A DNA stretch of 64,000 nt from Cyanidium caldarium (Eukaryota > Rhodophyta > Bangiophyceae > Cyanidiales > Cyanidiaceae), in contig JANCYW010000001.1 of assembly GCA_026184775.1 (NCBI GenBank), positions 186,001 through 250,000 of the forward strand, read 5' to 3'. The notes beneath the pieces were generated by a model. It was not told the origin of the DNA. It was given only the letters and a program-made list of their open reading frames with translations, and did not search any database. Positions 4,287 through 42,031 of the stretch are shown here, piece by piece; position 1 is the first letter of the stretch, and each line of letters starts with the position of its first letter. Position numbers and translations under genes: made by a program.

Positions 4287-4792
4287 ACGCAGCCGGTCGC
4301 GCCATGCACGCTGCCCTCTGTATAACGTCGCTGTCATGCTTTCTCTCCTATCGGTGGAGTGCGCTCGCGACGCACCCCTCATGTTCTGTGTAGATAACGC
4401 TCGCGTTGAAAACGGCCTCTGCAAGAGGCCAACGTATGGACGAGCCGCGTCGTTCACTGTACGTGTGAGAGGTCGAGCCGACTCGGCGCTTCTCGTCCTC
4501 GACTCTGTCCCTCTCCGTGGCCCTGGTCGAGGTCGCTGCGTCTCGTGTTCGTCCTCCGTCCGGCGCCCGCATTTCATGCAACGCGCGTCGATCGACGGCT
4601 TTCGCGCGTCGGCAACGACCCGTCTGCACTTTCGAGCGCCCGCGGGTACCTCGGCGTGAACCACAACGTTCTACAACTCGTAGCGCCCCCAGCTGATGCT
4701 CTGGTTGCATTCCGAAGCGCGCTTATGCCTCAACCCCAGACGCCCATTTCCTCGTCTCTCCATCGGGCCGGACGCCTCCCCGTCTGCCCCTC
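4287..4792 (+). other. Intergenic, no gene seen
   Basis: About 500 bases between the hydrolase stop and the PELOTA start. ORFs on both strands look like shadows (Arg/Thr-rich, no hydrophobic core, no family resemblance). It presumably contains the PELOTA promoter. Confidence 0.5.
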
Positions 4793-32203: not shown

Positions 32204-35200
32204 CTAGGCATGCCCGGCTTGCAGGAAGCGCTGCAGCGCCTCATACTCGTCGACACCACCGGTGTTGCGCATCTCCATCGCGATGCGCTGCATGAGGCGC
32301 GGGTCTGCCTGCGCGAACGCTTCCCGTGCGGCGCGGGCCGGCTCGGCCTCCAGGTACTCGTCTATGGCGGTCACCTGGCGCGCCAACGCCAGCGTCACCT
32401 CCTCCGACGACACCTGCTTCAGCAGAGCATGATGGTTGCGCAGCGCCCCCACCAGCAGCTCCACCACCGCGTTGGCCTCTTCGGTGTCCACTTGCAGCGG
32501 CAGGTACGCCAGCACGGCCGGCAGCGTCTCGCGTGGTCGCAAACACTGCGGTTGGTGCAGAGCAACGCGCAACAGTGCCGAGGCGGCGTTGTCAGCGGCC
32601 TCCTCGCTGGCGTCATCCTCGCGCGCCGCCTGGTGCCGCACCATGTGCTCCAGCGCGGCGATCACCGGGTGCGCGCCGCACAGCGTGCTGAACAGCCCCG
32701 CCTCGCACCGCTGCGCACTCATACCGATGCCGTACGCGGCCGCCTGGCGCACTTCCGCCTCGGCGTCGTTCAAGTACAGCGCGAACGCCGGGAACACCTG
32801 TTGAATGTACGCCTGGCCGCGCTCGCCGCCGTGCGCGATCCAGTACGCCCACGCGCACAGGCCGGCGCGTCGCTCCGCCGCCGGGCGCTCCTGCGCCAGC
32901 ATCGACGCGAACAGCTGCGCCAGCGAGGTGGCCGTCGCGGCCGCCGCCGGCGTCGCCACTGCCGCGCCGCTCCCAGCAGCCGTTGTCGTCGCCTCCCCGG
33001 CCGCCGCATGTTCCTCGGACGCGGCGGTCGGCTCCAGCATCGCCTCAAAGGCGACAACGAATCCGGTGGCCCCGGCGTTGACCAGTGCACTGCGCACCAC
33101 ATCGGCGCACTCGGACAGCACCGCGTCATCCCACTCGTCGGCCTCCTCCAAATTCTGCAGCTCGTCCTCGTCAATCTCGCTGTCTTCCACGCGCGTCAAC
33201 AGCCGCTCGCGCACCCGCTCCTCGCGCTCTTTCAGCATGTCGATCAGAAATCGCGCCACGTCCAGGCACGTATCCGCTTGGAGTACGGCCGGCCCGGCGC
33301 GCTCCAGGATGGAACCGACCGCCTCGATCATGTGCGACTGCACCTCCACCTCGGGCTCGTCGCGCGCCGCCGCACACACCTTGGGCAGCAGGTACGCCAT
33401 CAGCTCGCGCACCGCGGCCACCGCCTGCTGCGGCTGTCCGGCGCGCTCAAAGTGGTCTTTGGCGCAGGTCACCAGCTCCGGCATGGTGTTGGCGGCGTAC
33501 TGTCGACACATGTCCTGGTACCAAAACGTCAGATTGTCCACGGTGATCTGCGTCAACTGTTCCAGGTAGGGGAACAGCGCCCCCTTCAGGTCCGACATGA
33601 ACGACGACAGGATCGACATGGCGGTGGATCGGTCCTCCAGCGCCGACGTGCGAATGCCGATCTTTTTGTCGCCAAACTCCACCGTCGCGAAGCCGTCTTC
33701 AGACGGCGCGTTGGCGTCGGTGGTGTTGCCGCTGCCGCCGGCCGCTGTTGCTGCCGCGGCCGCACTCCCCACCAGGCCGTCGCCGTTCTCGTCGGCGTCG
33801 CCGCCGGGGAACACCTGAATGTCGGGCTTGTGGCTGGCGGTCTCGCACAGCGCCGGCATCACATACGGCAAATAGGGCACGAAGCGCTCGCCGAGGCTCT
33901 TGCAGATGCGCGCATACGCCTGCATCATGTAACCGATCTGCGGGTCGTCCGGTTCGAACTGCATGCTACGCTGATTCTCCACCAGAATCTGCATCACTTC
34001 GTCGGCGTCGGCGCCGAAACGATCACCACCGACCGCCACCCCGATCAGGGTGATGCACTCCATGGTCTTGCCACGCATCAGGCGCATGCGCTTGTCGCCG
34101 CCGGTGCTCTGCCGCAGCAGACCTTTGAGCGGCGGCATGAACGACTCGTAGTACTTTTCAAACGCCGTATCGACACAGCCGGCCACCGCCGCTACCGCGG
34201 TCATCGCCTGCTCCTGCGCCAGGCGCGAGTTGCTGTTCAGCAATGTCATCAGCTTGGCGACCAACGTGTCCAGATACGGCGTCACTGCGGACGCGCTGGC
34301 CTCGTCGCAAAAGTTGATGAGCGCGGCGGCGGCATGGCTCCGCACCCGGTGACAGCTGTCATCCATGGCGGATACCAGCGCAGGCACCACCATTGCGTGA
34401 TACTTGCGCTGCAGCACCCCGCCGAAATCGGTGCTCATCTGTCCCATACAATTGATGGCCGCCCAGCGCACCCGCGGGTGCGGATCGGAGAAGCGCCCTA
34501 GCACCAGATTGAGCACCTCGCCCAGCTGCGACTCCATCTGCTTGCGACAGCCCTCGCCGATCTGATTGATGGTCATCACCGCCGCATGTCGGTAGCGCCA
34601 GTCGTCGCGTTGTTGCAGAAACTGCTGCACCAGCTGCGACGCCGCCGGCAGCACCGTCTTGCCGCCCAGCGCCAGCGCGATGCGGTCGATGGCGCCCTGC
34701 CCGGCGTCCGCGTTGCTGTAGTCGTCGTTCTCCTCCTCGCCGCCGCCCTCGGTGCTCACCACCGAGTCGGTGGTGTACCACTCCTGCTTGTCCTCGATCT
34801 CGGTCATCATCTTCATGCAGATGGAGATCACCTGATTGCGGAACTGCGGCAGGCGGCGGCACGGGCCGCGCAACTGCTCTGCACACACCGTGAGAAACTC
34901 TAGTGCCACTTGCCGCGTCTCGTCCTCCAGCGCGTCGCTGCTGGCGATTTGCACCATGGCGTCGACCACGGCGCCGAGCTGGGCGCGGAAGAACGCTGGC
35001 TCACCCTGCGCCACCTCGATCAGTTCCTCGATCATTTTGCGGGTATCATCCTCATCAAATGCACTCAGCGAGAAACTGACGGCACCCAGGACACCGGGTA
35101 TCAGGTCGGTGAACTTGAGGCACACCTTGTTCTCCGCCACCAGCAGCAGCGCCCGCAGGGCGGCCACGGCGTTGGTGCGCACCTCCGGATCAGCATCACT

Positions 35201-35839
35201 CAGCGCGGCCGACAGCACCTCGTGCAGCGGCAGCAGGTGCGGTTCCAGCGCATCCTCATCCAAGTAGTCGATCAGGCTGGAGAGCAAGTACAGGCCGGCA
35301 GCGCGCTGCCGCGCCGCCTCGCTCTTGGCGAGCGCATACACCGCCGGCAACAGCTCCGGCCAGGGCGCCACCCGCCGGTCAGCCTCGTCGCCCTCGGCCG
35401 GTGTGCTGGGCACCGCGCACACCAGCGCCATGCCGCCCAGTGCGGCCACCACCGCGCACAGTTTGCGCAGCTCGGACGACAGGTACTCTTCCTGCACACT
35501 CTGTAGCGCCGTCAGCGCGCGATCACGGCAGCGCGCCAACAACTCCAACGCACCACGCTCCAGCGCCGCCGAGTCCAGCGCCACCACGCGCTGGCGCAGA
35601 ATCACCGCCGCCGACGAACGCACCGGCGACGCCGCCACCGCGTCGGCCACGCCCAGCGCCGCCGCCGGCGCCGTGCTCAGGTACGACAACGCGTCGTACA
35701 GTTCCAACGGGTTGCCCGAGGCCAACGCGTCCAGCTCAGACTCGCCCGCCCGGATCGTGGTCGTGTCCGAGGTTTGCAGCTGGCGCAGCAGCTGCGCCAC
35801 CTGCGAAGTCAGGGGCGGGACGGCGTCTTGACGATTCAT
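32204..35839 (-). CDS. Importin-5 / Kap121-type karyopherin beta
   Basis: A 1211-residue all-helical HEAT-repeat protein (family ~1100). Importin-5/RanBP5/Kap121 imports ribosomal proteins and histones into the nucleus. The HEAT units near HPRVRWAAINCMGQMSTDFG, then VVPALVSAMDDSCHRVRSHA, and KYYESFMPPLKGLL followed by LRGKTMECITLIGVAVGGDRF are hallmark IPO5 segments, and an acidic stretch (DSEIDEDELQNLEEADEW) corresponds to the Ran/cargo-binding acidic loop. The start at 35839 (MNRQDAVPPL) is chosen because upstream residues are Pro/Ser-rich leader. A minus-strand TATAAA lies ~135 bp upstream. Confidence 0.95.
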   Translation of the reverse strand: MNRQDAVPPLTSQVAQLLRQLQTSDTTTIRAGESELDALASGNPLELYDALSYLSTAPAAALGVADAVAASPVRSSAAVILRQRVVALDSAALERGALELLARCRDRALTALQSVQEEYLSSELRKLCAVVAALGGMALVCAVPSTPAEGDEADRRVAPWPELLPAVYALAKSEAARQRAAGLYLLSSLIDYLDEDALEPHLLPLHEVLSAALSDADPEVRTNAVAALRALLLVAENKVCLKFTDLIPGVLGAVSFSLSAFDEDDTRKMIEELIEVAQGEPAFFRAQLGAVVDAMVQIASSDALEDETRQVALEFLTVCAEQLRGPCRRLPQFRNQVISICMKMMTEIEDKQEWYTTDSVVSTEGGGEEENDDYSNADAGQGAIDRIALALGGKTVLPAASQLVQQFLQQRDDWRYRHAAVMTINQIGEGCRKQMESQLGEVLNLVLGRFSDPHPRVRWAAINCMGQMSTDFGGVLQRKYHAMVVPALVSAMDDSCHRVRSHAAAALINFCDEASASAVTPYLDTLVAKLMTLLNSNSRLAQEQAMTAVAAVAGCVDTAFEKYYESFMPPLKGLLRQSTGGDKRMRLMRGKTMECITLIGVAVGGDRFGADADEVMQILVENQRSMQFEPDDPQIGYMMQAYARICKSLGERFVPYLPYVMPALCETASHKPDIQVFPGGDADENGDGLVGSAAAAATAAGGSGNTTDANAPSEDGFATVEFGDKKIGIRTSALEDRSTAMSILSSFMSDLKGALFPYLEQLTQITVDNLTFWYQDMCRQYAANTMPELVTCAKDHFERAGQPQQAVAAVRELMAYLLPKVCAAARDEPEVEVQSHMIEAVGSILERAGPAVLQADTCLDVARFLIDMLKEREERVRERLLTRVEDSEIDEDELQNLEEADEWDDAVLSECADVVRSALVNAGATGFVVAFEAMLEPTAASEEHAAAGEATTTAAGSGAAVATPAAAATATSLAQLFASMLAQERPAAERRAGLCAWAYWIAHGGERGQAYIQQVFPAFALYLNDAEAEVRQAAAYGIGMSAQRCEAGLFSTLCGAHPVIAALEHMVRHQAAREDDASEEAADNAASALLRVALHQPQCLRPRETLPAVLAYLPLQVDTEEANAVVELLVGALRNHHALLKQVSSEEVTLALARQVTAIDEYLEAEPARAAREAFAQADPRLMQRIAMEMRNTGGVDEYEALQRFLQAGHA

Positions 35840-35973
35840 GGAGGGAGGCGGGTCAGGCCTTCCAAAGTGGGGAAACGAGGGGAAGGGGGGAGTGGGCGAC
35901 GATGACAGCAGGCCGCAGAGCGGAGGCGGCAGGCGACGCTGCTGCAAGAGACTTGCGGGTGGAGACGTGCCTC

Positions 35974-35979
35974 GTTTAT
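35974..35979 (-). promoter_or_regulatory. TATA-like box of the importin gene
   Basis: TATAAA on the minus strand in the context CCTTATAAACG, ~135 bp upstream of the chosen importin start. Position and orientation fit a core promoter, but the motif is short. Confidence 0.45.
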
Positions 35980-36137
35980 AAGGAGGCCGAAGCGTTACGA
36001 CTGTGCAGTTGGCGCCGAGCAAGCCGCGGCCGTGCCGCGCGGAGTTCGGGAAAGATTCCACCGAGATGAGTCAAACTTTCACGGAAGGAAGGGCAGGGAA
36101 CTTGGGCAGTCTCGCCATCGCCTCGATGCCCTCGCAT

Positions 36138-36650: not shown

Positions 36651-36867
36651 GAATGTTAAAGTGGCTTGAGCAGGGAATCCTGTGGGCGGTGGGAGGTTTG
36701 AGAGATCATCGGCGCCCCGCGACCCTGCCGCTCTTTTTCCGCCGTCCAACCCGATTCGCTCTCCGGCAAATCTCTGGCCGTTTGGCCTCCGAAGTGTCCA
36801 TCATCCTCCCGTGCACTGGGCACATCCCACGCCTCTGTCCTCTCACCTCAGAGAGGCAGCCACCCCA

Positions 36868-39800
36868 TAATTGTGGCGGAACGTATTCCTCAACCGGACG
36901 GGCGCCCGGAGATGAGCGAATGGGCGCGTCTCCGCAAGGAGCGCAAGCACGAGAACATGCTCAGGCGTCTGCTCCGATTGTGGAAGGACCGTTCCAGGGC
37001 GCCCGGCGCAAGTTGACCGACGTCCAGCTGTTGACGGCGTACCGCAGGTGGAAAACCCAGTTTCAGGGCCTGAGAGGGGCGTTTGGCATGTTGTGGGCGA
37101 AGTTGCGCGGCCCGTTCTACGTGCTGGGGTGTCGGTCGAGACGGTGGTGATGGACTTGTCGGCGGCCGCCGAGGGCACCATCTTCACCAACGCGGAGTGG
37201 GTGCAGCGGTTCGATGAACATGAGGTGCCGCACGGTAACAAGCCGAACGCCTATACCCTGCTTATGCAGGCTCTGGGTGCGCGGCTCATCAAGCCGGCGG
37301 ACGTGGTGGCCACCCTAGAGGCGCGTGCCCGGGAGTTGGGGTAGAGCGCACCCAACGTGGTGGTGAGCGAACTCAAGTGACAACCGCCGTTGTCGTTGGA
37401 GTTGCCGGGAATACGCCACTACGCCGAATGCCAACTGTGGCACATGTTGCCGCTGGAGGGCCACTACAACTCTCTGGTGTGGGGTCACGACAGACTGTTG
37501 CTGCGGGCGCTGCGTCAGCAGCTCATCAGCGTGGCGGAATTTTCGGTGAACTTTTTGGGGTCCGATGCCGGACAAGTCTTCTGAGGATGGTGAAACTACC
37601 TCGACCACCGAGCCACAGTTATCGCCATCGTCTTCAGAAGGCACCTGCCACACCACCACCCAGCTGCGGGAGATGTTGGCACAGAGGGGTGGGCACTGCG
37701 GTCCCAAACGCCGACCACGACACGGTGTTGCTGAAGGCGTTCCGGGGCGGTCTGGTGGCCGTGGAGGATCTGCTGGTGGAACCGTTGCAACAGTTGCCAT
37801 CGGTGCGGGCGCTGCAAGAGGGCGACCCGCTCACCACCGCGTCGCTGCAACAGCTGTTGCGCGATCACCACATCGAGTCTGAGAATGGCATGGATTACGA
37901 CCGCCTGGCCAAGCTGGCGGTGCGCGAGGGCATCGCGATGCGGCGCCAGCTGCAGAACCGCAAACCGCAGCCGGAGCGTCGGCGCGACCCGACGCACCTG
38001 GAGCGGCTGTTGGACGAGGTGGCGCAGCAATTGGCCGCGCGGGGCATACGGGAAGCGGGTGAGCGAGAGAAGATGGAGGAGGGACCGCCGCAGCAACAAC
38101 AACAGTGAGAACAGCGGAGACGGCAGCGTGGACTGGGGTACATACGCCAGTACCGTCGCGGCGTCTACTACATCGATCGGCAGCTGTATCGGATGCTGCA
38201 GCAGGGGGGCGCGGCGGAGGGGATGAATGTGCACGACCCGCGCCCGCTGTGGATGCAGAGTTGTCTGCAGGCGCACCTGCTCATCCTGGCGGAAGCGGTC
38301 GCCGAGATGACCCCCGCGCAGCGCAACGCCACGACGGAGACACAGCGCGAGGCGCCCGTGCCCCAGGGCGTGTACTACCCGTCGCGGGAGTTGGTGGGGG
38401 CGTTGCTGGCCATCGGGGTCAGGTTGCGGCCGCGGATGCGTCGCGCTGATTTGTCAGCGCTGGCGCCGCGGTATCACCTGATCAGCGAGGCGGATGAGGC
38501 GACACGTTTTGGTGGATATTACCACGGAGCGCCGCTGTCGGATGTGGTGGCGCAGCCGCAACCCACAATGGCCAACGGGCGGGTGCTGGCGGTGGCCAAG
38601 GCGCACAAGCTGGCGCTGGCGACGGTGCTGCCCGACACCGACACGCCGGGGATCATCGAGGACGCGGTGCAGCGCATGAATCTGCTGTGGGGGCATGGGA
38701 TGCCTCGGCGTACTATTACGCGGTGCACTGTCTGGAGAAGGGGCGGGAGTTGCCGTCGTTGACCCGCAACTTTTACGTGGCGGCACTGTATGCGGTGTCG
38801 CGGGAGGGTCCGCCGTATGATCCGCCGACTGGGAAGTGCCATCCGTCGGATCTGCAGCTGGCGGCGAAGGCGCTCTTCGACGCCGAGTACAAGGAGACGA
38901 TGCAGGAGGATGCCGAGTCGGATGCGAAGCCGGAGCTGATGTCGCGAGGGAGACTCAACTCAATCATTCAGTTTGAGGCCGAGCAACTGGCGGTGAACGC
39001 GGAGAACAACTTTCGGGAGCACTTGGTGGAGCACCCGTGCCTCCTGGTGGAGGTGCACTTCCAGGTGTCGGAGCTGGTGAAGCAGGTGTAGAGCAACCCG
39101 CATCTGTCGCAGACGCAGAAGAAGCAGCGGGTGGCGGCGACTCGGGCCAAGTTCTGCGACGTCAAAATCGACGTGTTGCAGGTGCCCAGCGGCAATTGGA
39201 GGCGAAGACCCAGCCGCCCGAGGCGCCAACGACGACCACTCCCACCGCCACCTCTTCAACTTTTCCAGGCGATATCCGGGCTGGCGCAGCGGCGTCTGGC
39301 GGCGCTACAGACTTGCGGCGATGACGACGACACCGCGATGACCGTGGAGGCGACAGCGCGCCCGGCCCGACCCACTCGGGCATACCGCAACGCCGCGTAT
39401 TTCGCCGACCGGATGGTGGACGAGCTGGTGCGCCGCCGGCAGGAACGCCCAGGCGCCCTCCCCCCGAGGGCGTGACTGTTGAGCGCCTGCGCGACGACCT
39501 GGCTGCACTGCTACACCACCTGATGGTGGGTGCACTGCAGGACGCTCTTTGGGAGTTGAAGTTGCGGGCGGCCTATCAGGGACCCCTCATTCAGGAGATC
39601 AAGGACATCATGTGTTGGGGTCGCGGCTTCGACCTGGACCACCGGGACTTTCGGGCCGGTCCGGCAGCTGACCCGCGCTACCTGTTCCGCCACATGGTCC
39701 GCACCAACGGGGTGTCGGTGTCGATCAGGCTGGTGCGTCGCGACATGCGGGAGGCGACGCGGGTGCGACAGCGCCGGCGTGGCCCCAAACCGGTGCCGCC

Positions 39801-40725
39801 GTGTGGCCGCTCCCCGAAGGACTGCTCGGAACAAGAGCTGCAGCGTTTTCACCGCAGGCGCTTGGTGGTGATCGACTCGGGCATGGGCAACCTGCTGCAC
39901 GCAGTGGATGGGGTGGTGCAGATGCAGTACTCGCGCTCGCAGCTGTATATGGAGGGCGAGCACGATCCGTATCAGCGCCGGCGGCGGCAGTTGGCGCCGT
40001 CGGTGTTGCAACACCGTGGTGATGCCCAGGCAGTGCAGGAGTGGGACACCAACAAATCGGACCAGCGGCAGCGGCTGCAGGTGGCCAAGTCGCTGGATCA
40101 CGCAATGTGCGCGCACCACGCGCAGCGCCCGTATCGCAAGTTGCGCCACCAGCACCGCTGCAACGAGCAGCGCGCGGACGACTGGACGCGGAATCGTTTC
40201 CAGACACTGTACGGCAAGCCGAGCGAGGTGCTGGTGCTGTTCGGAGACCGGGACACGCGCAACCACCACCGAAAGGGCAGCCCGCCGACCAAGGTCAAGC
40301 GTAGGTGGGAGTTGTTTGAGAAATGCGGTTAGGACACACGCCGCTTTGATGGGGTGTACGCCAGCAAGCGGTGTTCGGTGCGCCGTTGTGCCGAGACGAA
40401 GACGTTGATGCAGCGCACCGATACGCGCAAGGGGAGGGAGAGGAAGGAGCGCATGATGTGGCGCCTGGTGCAGTGTCAGGATACGCAGTGCGAGTGGATA
40501 CACAACCGCAACAGGATTGCTCTACTCAACCCGCTGTGGGTCGCGCTGCCCATTTTGCACGGCCTTCCACCCCCGGCCCATCTGTGTCGCCCTCGTCGTG
40601 GTGGTTCTGGGAAGAAGACGCATTCTCCATCATCCAGCGGTTCATCGCGCGAGTGCCGATCGGGTCGAGCGATTGGCGCTGTCGGGAAGCGGGAGCGCGG
40701 GACCACGTCGGACACTTTGTTGTAG
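36868..40725 (+). pseudogene. Decayed Fanzor-like (TnpB-type) nuclease gene
   Basis: A ~3.9-kb stretch coding in pieces across all three plus frames, with at least five frame changes and several stops. The best part (39472-40725, one frame apart from one stop) has the Fanzor1 order: NLLHAVDG after a DSG motif (RuvC-I, family DPGxxNLL), at ~39874; a helical linker with YSRSQLYMEG and RPYRKLRHQHRCNEQR; VLVLFGD ~350 bases later; KGSPPTKVKRR; a SKRCSVRRC zinc-finger half; and LVQCQDTQCEWIHNRNRIALLN, aligning with the CxxxxCxxxWNRDxNAAxNI end. The 38193-39091 part resembles the helical N-terminal half. RuvC-II and III acids look lost (YASKRC; NRNR), so it is inactive. Whether 36868-38108 belongs to the same gene is uncertain. 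Confidence 0.8.
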
Positions 40726-40960
40726 TTGTCATCATCATCATCGGGTGGTGCAGAGCCCGCAAGGCGAGTCGTGCCGCGATAGGGGAATCATCGTGGTCAA
40801 GCCTAGTTAGAACACTACTTGGAGACCCGGTCCTCCGGGCAGTCCGGGCAAGTTTGTGGGCTGACGGAAGGCAGAACTGGGTCGCGCCGGGCGGCGCTGC
40901 TCGGTGGGAGGAGCGGAGCGAACGGAGTTTATCCTTTCCAAAACTCACTCTCCTCTGACG
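40726..40960 (+). other. Hairpin-rich flank of the Fanzor relic
   Basis: Directly after the relic. It contains CCCGG-TCCT-CCGGG (5-bp perfect stem at about 40827-40840), a second GTCCGGGC, and GCTC-n8-GAGC. In Fanzor and TnpB systems the guide (omega) RNA is encoded at the 3' end of the nuclease gene, so this could be its remnant. No open frame or terminal repeat is recognised. The call is speculative. Confidence 0.25.
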
Positions 40961-41254: not shown

Positions 41255-42031
41255 ATGGAAACGACGACGGCGTCGCCGGTTGATGCCGCCAGCGCCACCA
41301 GCGTGAGCAAAGCGCAGGAGCCGTCCAGCGTGTCTGCATCGCTAGCATCCGCGCCATCTGCGGCACCGTCCGCGAAGCATCCCAAACGGGTGCGAGCGCT
41401 CAGAGCACGACTGGACACGGCATTTCACGTGAACAATCACGGCCGCCGGAAAGAGTGGCGCGACAAGTACTTGTGTGAAATGTTCCAGGCGAATCCGGCC
41501 ATACCGCACAAGGAGTGGATCGGGGAGCGTGGCTCGCACTGGGCGCACTCGGCGCACAACGACGAGGAGCGCGGCGTATACCACGACATCCACTGCGACT
41601 GGGCCACTTGCGGTGCAAGCGTGGCGGACATGGCTGAATACTGCCGTCACGCCGCGGAGCATGTGGACCCCAAACTGCAGCCGTCCCGAGCCGCCCGACG
41701 ATCCTGGCCGCCGGGCCACCCGGTGGACCTGCTGGATGGCGAAATGATCTGGTATCCCGCGCGGATACTGGAGGAGCGCGGTGAGCGCTTTCTTATGCGA
41801 TACGACGAGCCGGAATGGTCCCGGCCGGATTTCGATGAGTGGGTGTGGAAGGACAGTCCGCGCATTGCCCCACGCGGATACTACACGCAGGGACGGCGCA
41901 TCCTGCCGCGGGGGACGTTTCTGCCAGCCGGGCGGGAGTATCCGGCGTGGGAGCGACAGACGCCTGACGGGCAACAGGAGCACTCGACGGCCGGCGGCTC
42001 ATCGGAGTATTCGGAGAACAAGGTGGGGTGA
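41255..42031 (+). CDS. C2H2 zinc finger plus Tudor/chromo-like protein
   Basis: A 258-residue protein from the ATG at 41255 (open to 40904, without conserved content). After a Ser/Ala-rich tail, a perfect C2H2 spacing is visible: C-DWAT-C-12 residues-H-AAE-H (HCDWATCGASVADMAEYCRH). It is followed by a Tudor/MBT-type module: DLLDGEMIWYPARILEERGE, then FLMRYDEPEWSRPDFDEWVW and DSPRIAPRGYY, matching the W-A-x-I/V...VhY-gw-...-DEWv-...-S-RiaP pattern of methyl-lysine readers. A chromatin-associated role is inferred. It sits right after the Fanzor relic. Confidence 0.75.
   Translation: METTTASPVDAASATSVSKAQEPSSVSASLASAPSAAPSAKHPKRVRALRARLDTAFHVNNHGRRKEWRDKYLCEMFQANPAIPHKEWIGERGSHWAHSAHNDEERGVYHDIHCDWATCGASVADMAEYCRHAAEHVDPKLQPSRAARRSWPPGHPVDLLDGEMIWYPARILEERGERFLMRYDEPEWSRPDFDEWVWKDSPRIAPRGYYTQGRRILPRGTFLPAGREYPAWERQTPDGQQEHSTAGGSSEYSENKVG

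Follow-up and report, generated by a model that had tools for sequence, protein, structure and literature searches.

A dead Fanzor1 gene of a repeated family in the red alga Cyanidium caldarium, and probable sequence exchange between its dispersed copies

How does a gene for an RNA-guided nuclease, interrupted by stops and frame breaks, come to stand almost unchanged on three chromosomes of a very small algal genome? Fanzors are eukaryotic cousins of the CRISPR cutting enzymes, and a sequence-only reading had proposed a fossil gene of this kind in a 64,000 nt stretch (hereafter, the window; G+C content 65.4 %) of DNA from Cyanidium caldarium, a red alga of hot springs. The genome analysed comprises 8,787,356 bases in 20 contigs, here numbered with the prefix C. 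All five peptide strings quoted in that reading were found on the plus strand and in the claimed order, with DSGMGNLL, VLVLFGD and KGSPPTKVKRR in the frame 39325–40332, and SKRCSVRRC and CQDTQCEWIHNRNRIALLN in the frame 40333–40725. The core of the proposed extent (36868..40725) also stood, but homology to near-identical copies begins at about 36735 and homology of the 3′ tail runs on to about 40908 (Table 1). As the fossil sits between an IPO5-like importin gene on the minus strand (32204–36070, assigned by Pfam) and a 258 aa frame that starts at 41255 and had no match in a Pfam scan, it is most likely intergenic.

Table 1. Features of the Fanzor1 fossil, in window positions; P0001 is the protein of the C3 copy
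Feature	Position	Strand	Basis
Fanzor1 fossil; stretch also present on C14 (left end ~36735) and on C2 (from ~36768)	36735..40667	+	DNA identity
N-terminal coding remnant, two frames, corresponding to P0001 residues 5–157	37046..37485	+	tblastn; stops at 37342 and 37378
Segment missing in the C3 and C13 copies; part to 38381 present in the C12 copy	37535..38576	+	DNA comparison
REC-region remnant, two frames, corresponding to P0001 residues 184–379; followed by ~465 bp loss relative to C3	38577..39196	+	stop at 39089
Remnant corresponding to P0001 residues 560–623; frame break at ~39463	39266..39463	+	
RuvC and TNB (zinc ribbon) remnant, corresponding to P0001 residues 623–1018, 62 %	39463..40620	+	stop at 40330
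RuvC-I: catalytic Asp retained, next Pro replaced by Ser	39874..39879	+	alignment with public relatives
Place of the rearranged catalytic Glu: Gly	40351..40353	+	
Place of the second zinc-finger Cys: Arg	40381..40383	+	
Third catalytic place: Asn	40510..40512	+	
Conserved 3′ tail, a guide-RNA scaffold candidate on grounds of position only	40738..40884	+	15-row alignment
Tail continuation, common to part of the family; right end approximate	40885..40908	+	

The link to Fanzor runs through relatives, because the window fragments themselves match no curated model: Pfam and NCBIfam scans of the fragments returned no TnpB or Fanzor model, and Pfam found no known domain in the segment 37535–38576. 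The relative that opens the way is P0001, an open frame of 1087 aa on contig C3 of the same genome that is related to the window fossil. P0001 matches Pfam PF07282 (4.2e-10) and, among solved Fanzor1 proteins, PpFz1 of Parasitella (2.9e-11) and SpuFz1 of Spizellomyces (2.6e-9); its match to GtFz1 of Guillardia (E 0.26) lay between unrelated rows at 0.063 and 0.86. The DPG motif, the rearranged Glu and the last Asp are all present in P0001, which has the D-E-D RuvC site of Fanzor1 and the zinc ribbon. Used as a query, its residues 700–1020 retrieved one public protein, P0002 (3.1e-29; one among 3326 candidates), and a profile of P0001 and P0002 matched at least 1203 proteins among the 7995 candidates scored; the best 120 of these 1203 are the public relatives referred to below.

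The proposed Fanzor identity was borne out by a profile of the 120 relatives, which matched three of the 895 window frames of at least 40 aa, all within 36.7–40.9 kb (E-values of 6.7e-24, 2.5e-6 and 5.1e-5), and none of the 1128 frames of the reversed window. P0002, a public Fanzor1 protein, matched the window by tblastn at 39610–40596 (E 6e-17) and 38717–39184 (E 1e-5), and matched nothing in the reversed window up to E 1. At E<=1e-5, a profile of 44 public relatives and the window piece matched no solved proteins other than three Fanzor1 proteins, each at 2.6e-44 or better, with GtFz1 at 2.6e-44. The predicted structure of the window piece was of low confidence (mean pLDDT 59.6), and a Foldseek search with this model placed Fanzor1 in the top two rows, with no row at E<=0.001. 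For the window fragments, Fanzor1 homology extends over the REC, RuvC and TNB regions. The sequence-only reading had also called the fossil the only clear accessory insertion in the window; for Fanzor frames, the kind covered by the profile search, no other was found. The profile search of the translated region, suggested beforehand as a check, was thus silent with curated Pfam and NCBIfam models but positive with a profile of public relatives. An advocate of chance resemblance, or of an unrelated host gene, could point to that silence and to a phmmer search of the 335 aa window piece against solved structures, which gave chance matches only; set against the matches to public Fanzor1 proteins, the clean reversed controls and the repeated family in the same genome, this reading deserves practically no credence. 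Chance resemblance in particular is ruled out by the profile of 120 relatives and its reversed-window control.

The window copy does not have the intact ORF of a working RNA-guided nuclease. Relative to P0001 it carries at least three frame breaks (near 37126, 38703–38708 and 39463), and it has four in-frame stops, two of which (37378 and 40330) are common to the copies on C2 and C14 and two of which (37342 and 39089) are found in the window copy only. About 465 bp are missing near 39196 by comparison with C3. Several residues that mark the family have also changed. Two marks of Fanzors are DPG at RuvC-I and a rearranged catalytic Glu that lies six residues N-terminal to the zinc finger (available text of PMC10711439). 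The Pro that follows the first Asp in 119 of 120 public relatives is Ser in the window, giving DSG rather than DPG, and DP is kept in the C3, C13 and C1:23 kb relatives; because the Fanzor1 homology is otherwise plain, we read DSG as a probable change within a decayed member. The rearranged Glu, likewise present in 119 of 120, is Gly in the window, C2 and C14 copies and in a remnant at C10:47 kb, and is kept in the C3, C13, C7, C6 and C8 relatives. The second zinc Cys and one Thr, each found in 120/120 public relatives, are Arg and Ala, respectively, and the last catalytic Asp (118/120, with a gap in the other two) is Asn.

These changes do not all carry the same weight. GtFz1 is functional with an Asn in the third catalytic position, and in SpuFz1 an Asp-to-Asn change there raised cleavage activity (both from excerpts of PMC11423790). 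Because Asn characterizes a clade of the present family and occurs naturally in the working GtFz1, it is a poor sign of death; strong evidence that the gene is dead comes instead from the missing Glu, the stops and the broken frames. The earlier claim of a dead copy, which had counted both the second and the third catalytic acids as unrecognizable, is upheld by the broken frame and the change of the second from Glu to Gly, but the Asn at the third place is no clear mark of death. dN/dS values of 0.56 for C3–C13, 0.72 for C3–C12 and 0.50–0.64 for C3 and the window pieces suggest that past constraint on the family was weak at most.

Related copies, which the sequence-only reading had recommended looking for in the same genome, turned out to be numerous: a protein search gave at least 42 matches (42 of 70 candidates scored, a lower bound), including the open C3 frame and two near-identical sisters of the window copy. 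Grouped by position, the matches fall into at least 30 places, of which at least 12 lie no more than 14 kb from where a contig ends. Among the matches listed, those on C3 and C13 span nearly the whole protein and, of these two, only C3 is free of stops. Even the C3 copy may not be a full working gene, because C3 and C13 lack the roughly 1 kb that corresponds to window 37535–38576 and that is partly present in C12 (to 38381). This segment of the window contains long frames, and may extend the Fanzor at its N terminus.

In a tree of 20 chosen copies (ultrafast bootstrap; several rows short, and five nodes at 40 to 62), eight copies form a clade marked by the Asn (88), within which the C7, C6 and C8 members retain the Glu and the C8 member also has the Arg. 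Four copies with Gly at the Glu place form a clade (93) that contains the trio of C1 (the window), C2 and C14 (99). The tree supports an order in which the Asn would have come first, followed by loss of the Glu and then by further copying, leaving the Glu-less form in four loci. Counting against a single origin of the Asn, two short subtelomeric rows on C16 carry it although they fall outside the Asn clade. Loss of the Glu before the last copying, and the presence of the Glu-less state in four loci, are what might be expected if the host had co-opted a nuclease-dead Fanzor as a regulator that binds DNA under RNA guidance, as with bacterial TldR. Such a role is very hard to reconcile with stops and frame breaks throughout the gene, two of the four stops being private to the window copy, with the loss of a zinc Cys, and with a dN/dS to C3 of 0.50–0.64, which indicates no strong constraint; we regard it as highly improbable.

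The genome search also brought up a second, distant Fanzor-like family at G000:C7:387538-389838 (L007), C10:41250-43181 (L047) and C7:4027-6081 (L003), of which the matches at C7:387 kb and C10:41 kb are stop-free, open frames. PF07282 was found below its cut-off in L007 and above it in L003, and a sequence search of this family against solved structures matched no Fanzor or TnpB. Inverted C-terminal Fanzor remnants lie just upstream of the C3, C12 and C14 copies (L008:2545-2663, L012:4290-4507 and G000:C14:254752-255105). At L076 (G000:C16:7800-12800), C-terminal remnants occur as direct repeats at 772-1041, 2561-2830 and 4350-4619, flanking two tandem copies of a methyltransferase gene (Pfam Methyltransf_31; 97 % over 2062 bp), which we take to be ArsM. 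Unequal crossing-over between these remnants may have duplicated the methyltransferase gene; a subtelomeric arsM duplication in Cyanidium caldarium is described in the available part of PMC9812998.

The two sister copies, on chromosomes C2 and C14, are 98.8–99.2 % identical to the window copy. Over window positions 36768–40667, the window agrees with C2 at 3854/3900 positions and with C14 at 3868/3900, and C2 agrees with C14 at 3850/3900; each of the three carries the Ser, Gly, Ala, Arg and Asn changes. The trio could have arisen without any gene conversion if a defined, non-autonomous element had recently inserted at all three sites, mobilized in trans by some unseen transposase or assisted by a Fanzor that still works (the C3 copy, for example). 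The similar bounds of the shared stretch in all three copies speak for this, as do the differing flanks and the end of close three-way identity near 40662–40667. Insertion of a defined unit would also be compatible with the C14 copy, in which the tail is missing and clear homology stops at 40667, and with C2, whose left side shows only weak homology (14/21 columns, plus 12 gapped). Many gene-less element copies are known from Spizellomyces (Saito et al., PMC10432273, in excerpt). Against simple insertion, however, the window and C2 continue past 40667 with diverged family tails (107/153 columns over 40726–40884), a search of the genome found no serine resolvase (PF00239), the IS607-type partner (the control search was positive in 10/14 genomes, all prokaryotes), and no inverted repeats were found in the full-length copies tested.

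The distribution of differences within the trio bears further on this choice. The 58 single-base differences in the shared stretch comprise 16 private to C14, 30 private to C2 and 12 private to the window. Ten of the 16 C14-private differences fall in the patch 39050–39168, all ten in the state of C3 and C13, and nine of the 30 C2-private differences fall in the patch 40454–40485, all nine in the state of the C10:47 kb remnant. Under random placement, such clustering arose in 0/20000 trials for each patch, the patches having been picked post hoc. If the relative-like states are older, the newer states join the window with C2 in the first patch and with C14 in the second, so that no single tree fits; if they are newer, C14 and C2 took them from relatives. 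On either polarity, the clustered differences support the view that stretches were exchanged between dispersed copies, and we read this as probable ectopic gene conversion between dispersed dead copies. In the second patch, three of the nine window/C14 states occur in none of the copies compared, and if the window and C14 were the takers, the donor would not be among those copies. As the clustered differences fit no single tree, recent insertion without conversion seems to us possible but rather doubtful. Separately, the dead copy on C14 ends shortly before a frame (L060, G000:C14:249900-250900) that, from its motifs, we presume to be nitrate-reductase-like.

The 15 tails aligned have in common a conserved block, about 147 nt long (40738–40884) and 3′ of the gene, with a mean column identity of 63 %. 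A DNA search with one tail gave at least 18 places among the matches listed, and at least five of these (C2:183, C8:148, C16:131 and C16:214 kb, and C10:8 kb) have no protein match listed. The guide RNA of SpuFz1 lies in the same position, 3′ of the gene, and gene-less copies exist there too (available portion of PMC10432273); by position only, the tail is a candidate guide-RNA scaffold. Covariation gives the tail fold no support: with pair changes scored on the alignment from which the fold itself was derived, 87.0 % of cells were paired, compared with 86.8 % in shuffles (221/500 as high) and 27–39 % in slid controls. No Rfam family matched the tail. The block has no clean terminus, and none of the full-length copies tested had significant terminal inverted repeats, the best end-to-end matches being E 0.094 (27/39, C3) and 0.12 (19/24, window), with C2 and C13 weaker and the element ends approximate in all cases. 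Elsewhere in the genome, tails also occur as inverted pairs, at L069:216-339 and 515-642 (90 nt arms, 89 % complementary), at L078:128-215 and 306-393 (88 nt arms, 72 %), and at L072:53-137 and 132-258 (seen by BLAST, and absent from the repeat search); these look like small fold-back elements made from two tails.

Our data are best explained, we are fairly confident, by a dead Fanzor1 of a repeated red-algal family whose lineage acquired the Asn, then lost the Glu, and whose copies exchanged sequence, probably by ectopic gene conversion. To judge from known Fanzors, the ancestor of the window copy would have been an RNA-guided DNA nuclease, with a guide RNA derived from the tail 3′ of the gene, at the element's end, and cutting would have taken place next to a short motif; cuts at element-free sites would then favour copying of the element. 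Copying would have continued in the lineage after the Glu was lost. Conversion alone could account for the near identity of the dead copies on C1, C2 and C14, or insertion in trans could have come first and conversion later. Today, the window copy most likely has no activity of its own, and acts as a repeat involved in gene conversion. An improbable variant is that a working member, guided from the tails of dead copies, cuts related sites, with repair then copying dead sequence over dead sequence, and that the Asn-type site, known from GtFz1, had an independent origin in this family and became widespread ahead of the loss of the Glu. If this were true, the nuclease would drive the concerted evolution of its own fossils.

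Fanzor1 has been known in Cyanidioschyzon since 2013, and the family described here adds another member. Literature searches, which mostly did not reach subscription papers, found, among the titles listed, none dedicated to the Fanzors of Cyanidium, and the word Fanzor is absent from the main text of the genome paper (PMC9812998). What may interest a specialist is the order of losses, together with the Asn clade and the exchange patches. The loss of the Glu in a lineage that occupies four loci is a hint that, in a very small algal genome, Fanzor genes can outlive their own activity, and broken copies on three chromosomes suggest copying or rewriting after function had stopped. Transformation has been reported for Cyanidium caldarium (PMC13353863, in excerpt), and the genome offers a small, chromosome-level system for testing what a Fanzor does to its own copies. 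Two changes that both resemble decay, Asn at the third catalytic place and Gly at the second, can here be told apart.

Among known systems, TldR, a group of nuclease-dead TnpB regulators, differs in that TldR genes are functional, whereas the window copy is broken. The two are alike in the loss of nuclease residues (available text of PMC13418256). The window copy shares Asn at the third catalytic place with GtFz1 of Guillardia theta, but GtFz1 is an active nuclease, whereas the window copy also lacks the Glu and an intact frame (excerpts of PMC11423790). SpuFz1 and PpFz1 resemble P0001 in their homology over REC, RuvC and TNB (PMC10432273 and PMC11423790, each in part); P0001 is longer, at 1087 aa, with an acidic insert. 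The elements of SpuFz1 are described, in the text available, as carrying 30 nt inverted repeats, whereas none were found in the full-length copies tested here. In Cyanidioschyzon merolae, the Fanzor1 element CMe-1A has about 150 copies, some 80 % identical to the consensus, with no inverted repeats and with target duplications that could not be determined (Bao and Jurka 2013, PMC3627910, in the portion available). Like the present family, it is a repeated Fanzor1 in a small cyanidiophycean genome, with mostly diverged copies and, among the full-length copies tested here, no significant inverted repeats; compared by description only, the two differ in genus and in the near-identical dead trio, the Asn clade and the exchange patches found here. 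Finally, the copies of MCi-2 in Mucor circinelloides are, like the trio, near-identical over the Fanzor part and different outside it; in MCi-2 it is the 5′ side that differs and target duplications exist (PMC3627910, likewise in excerpt), whereas in the trio the 3′ tail differs too.
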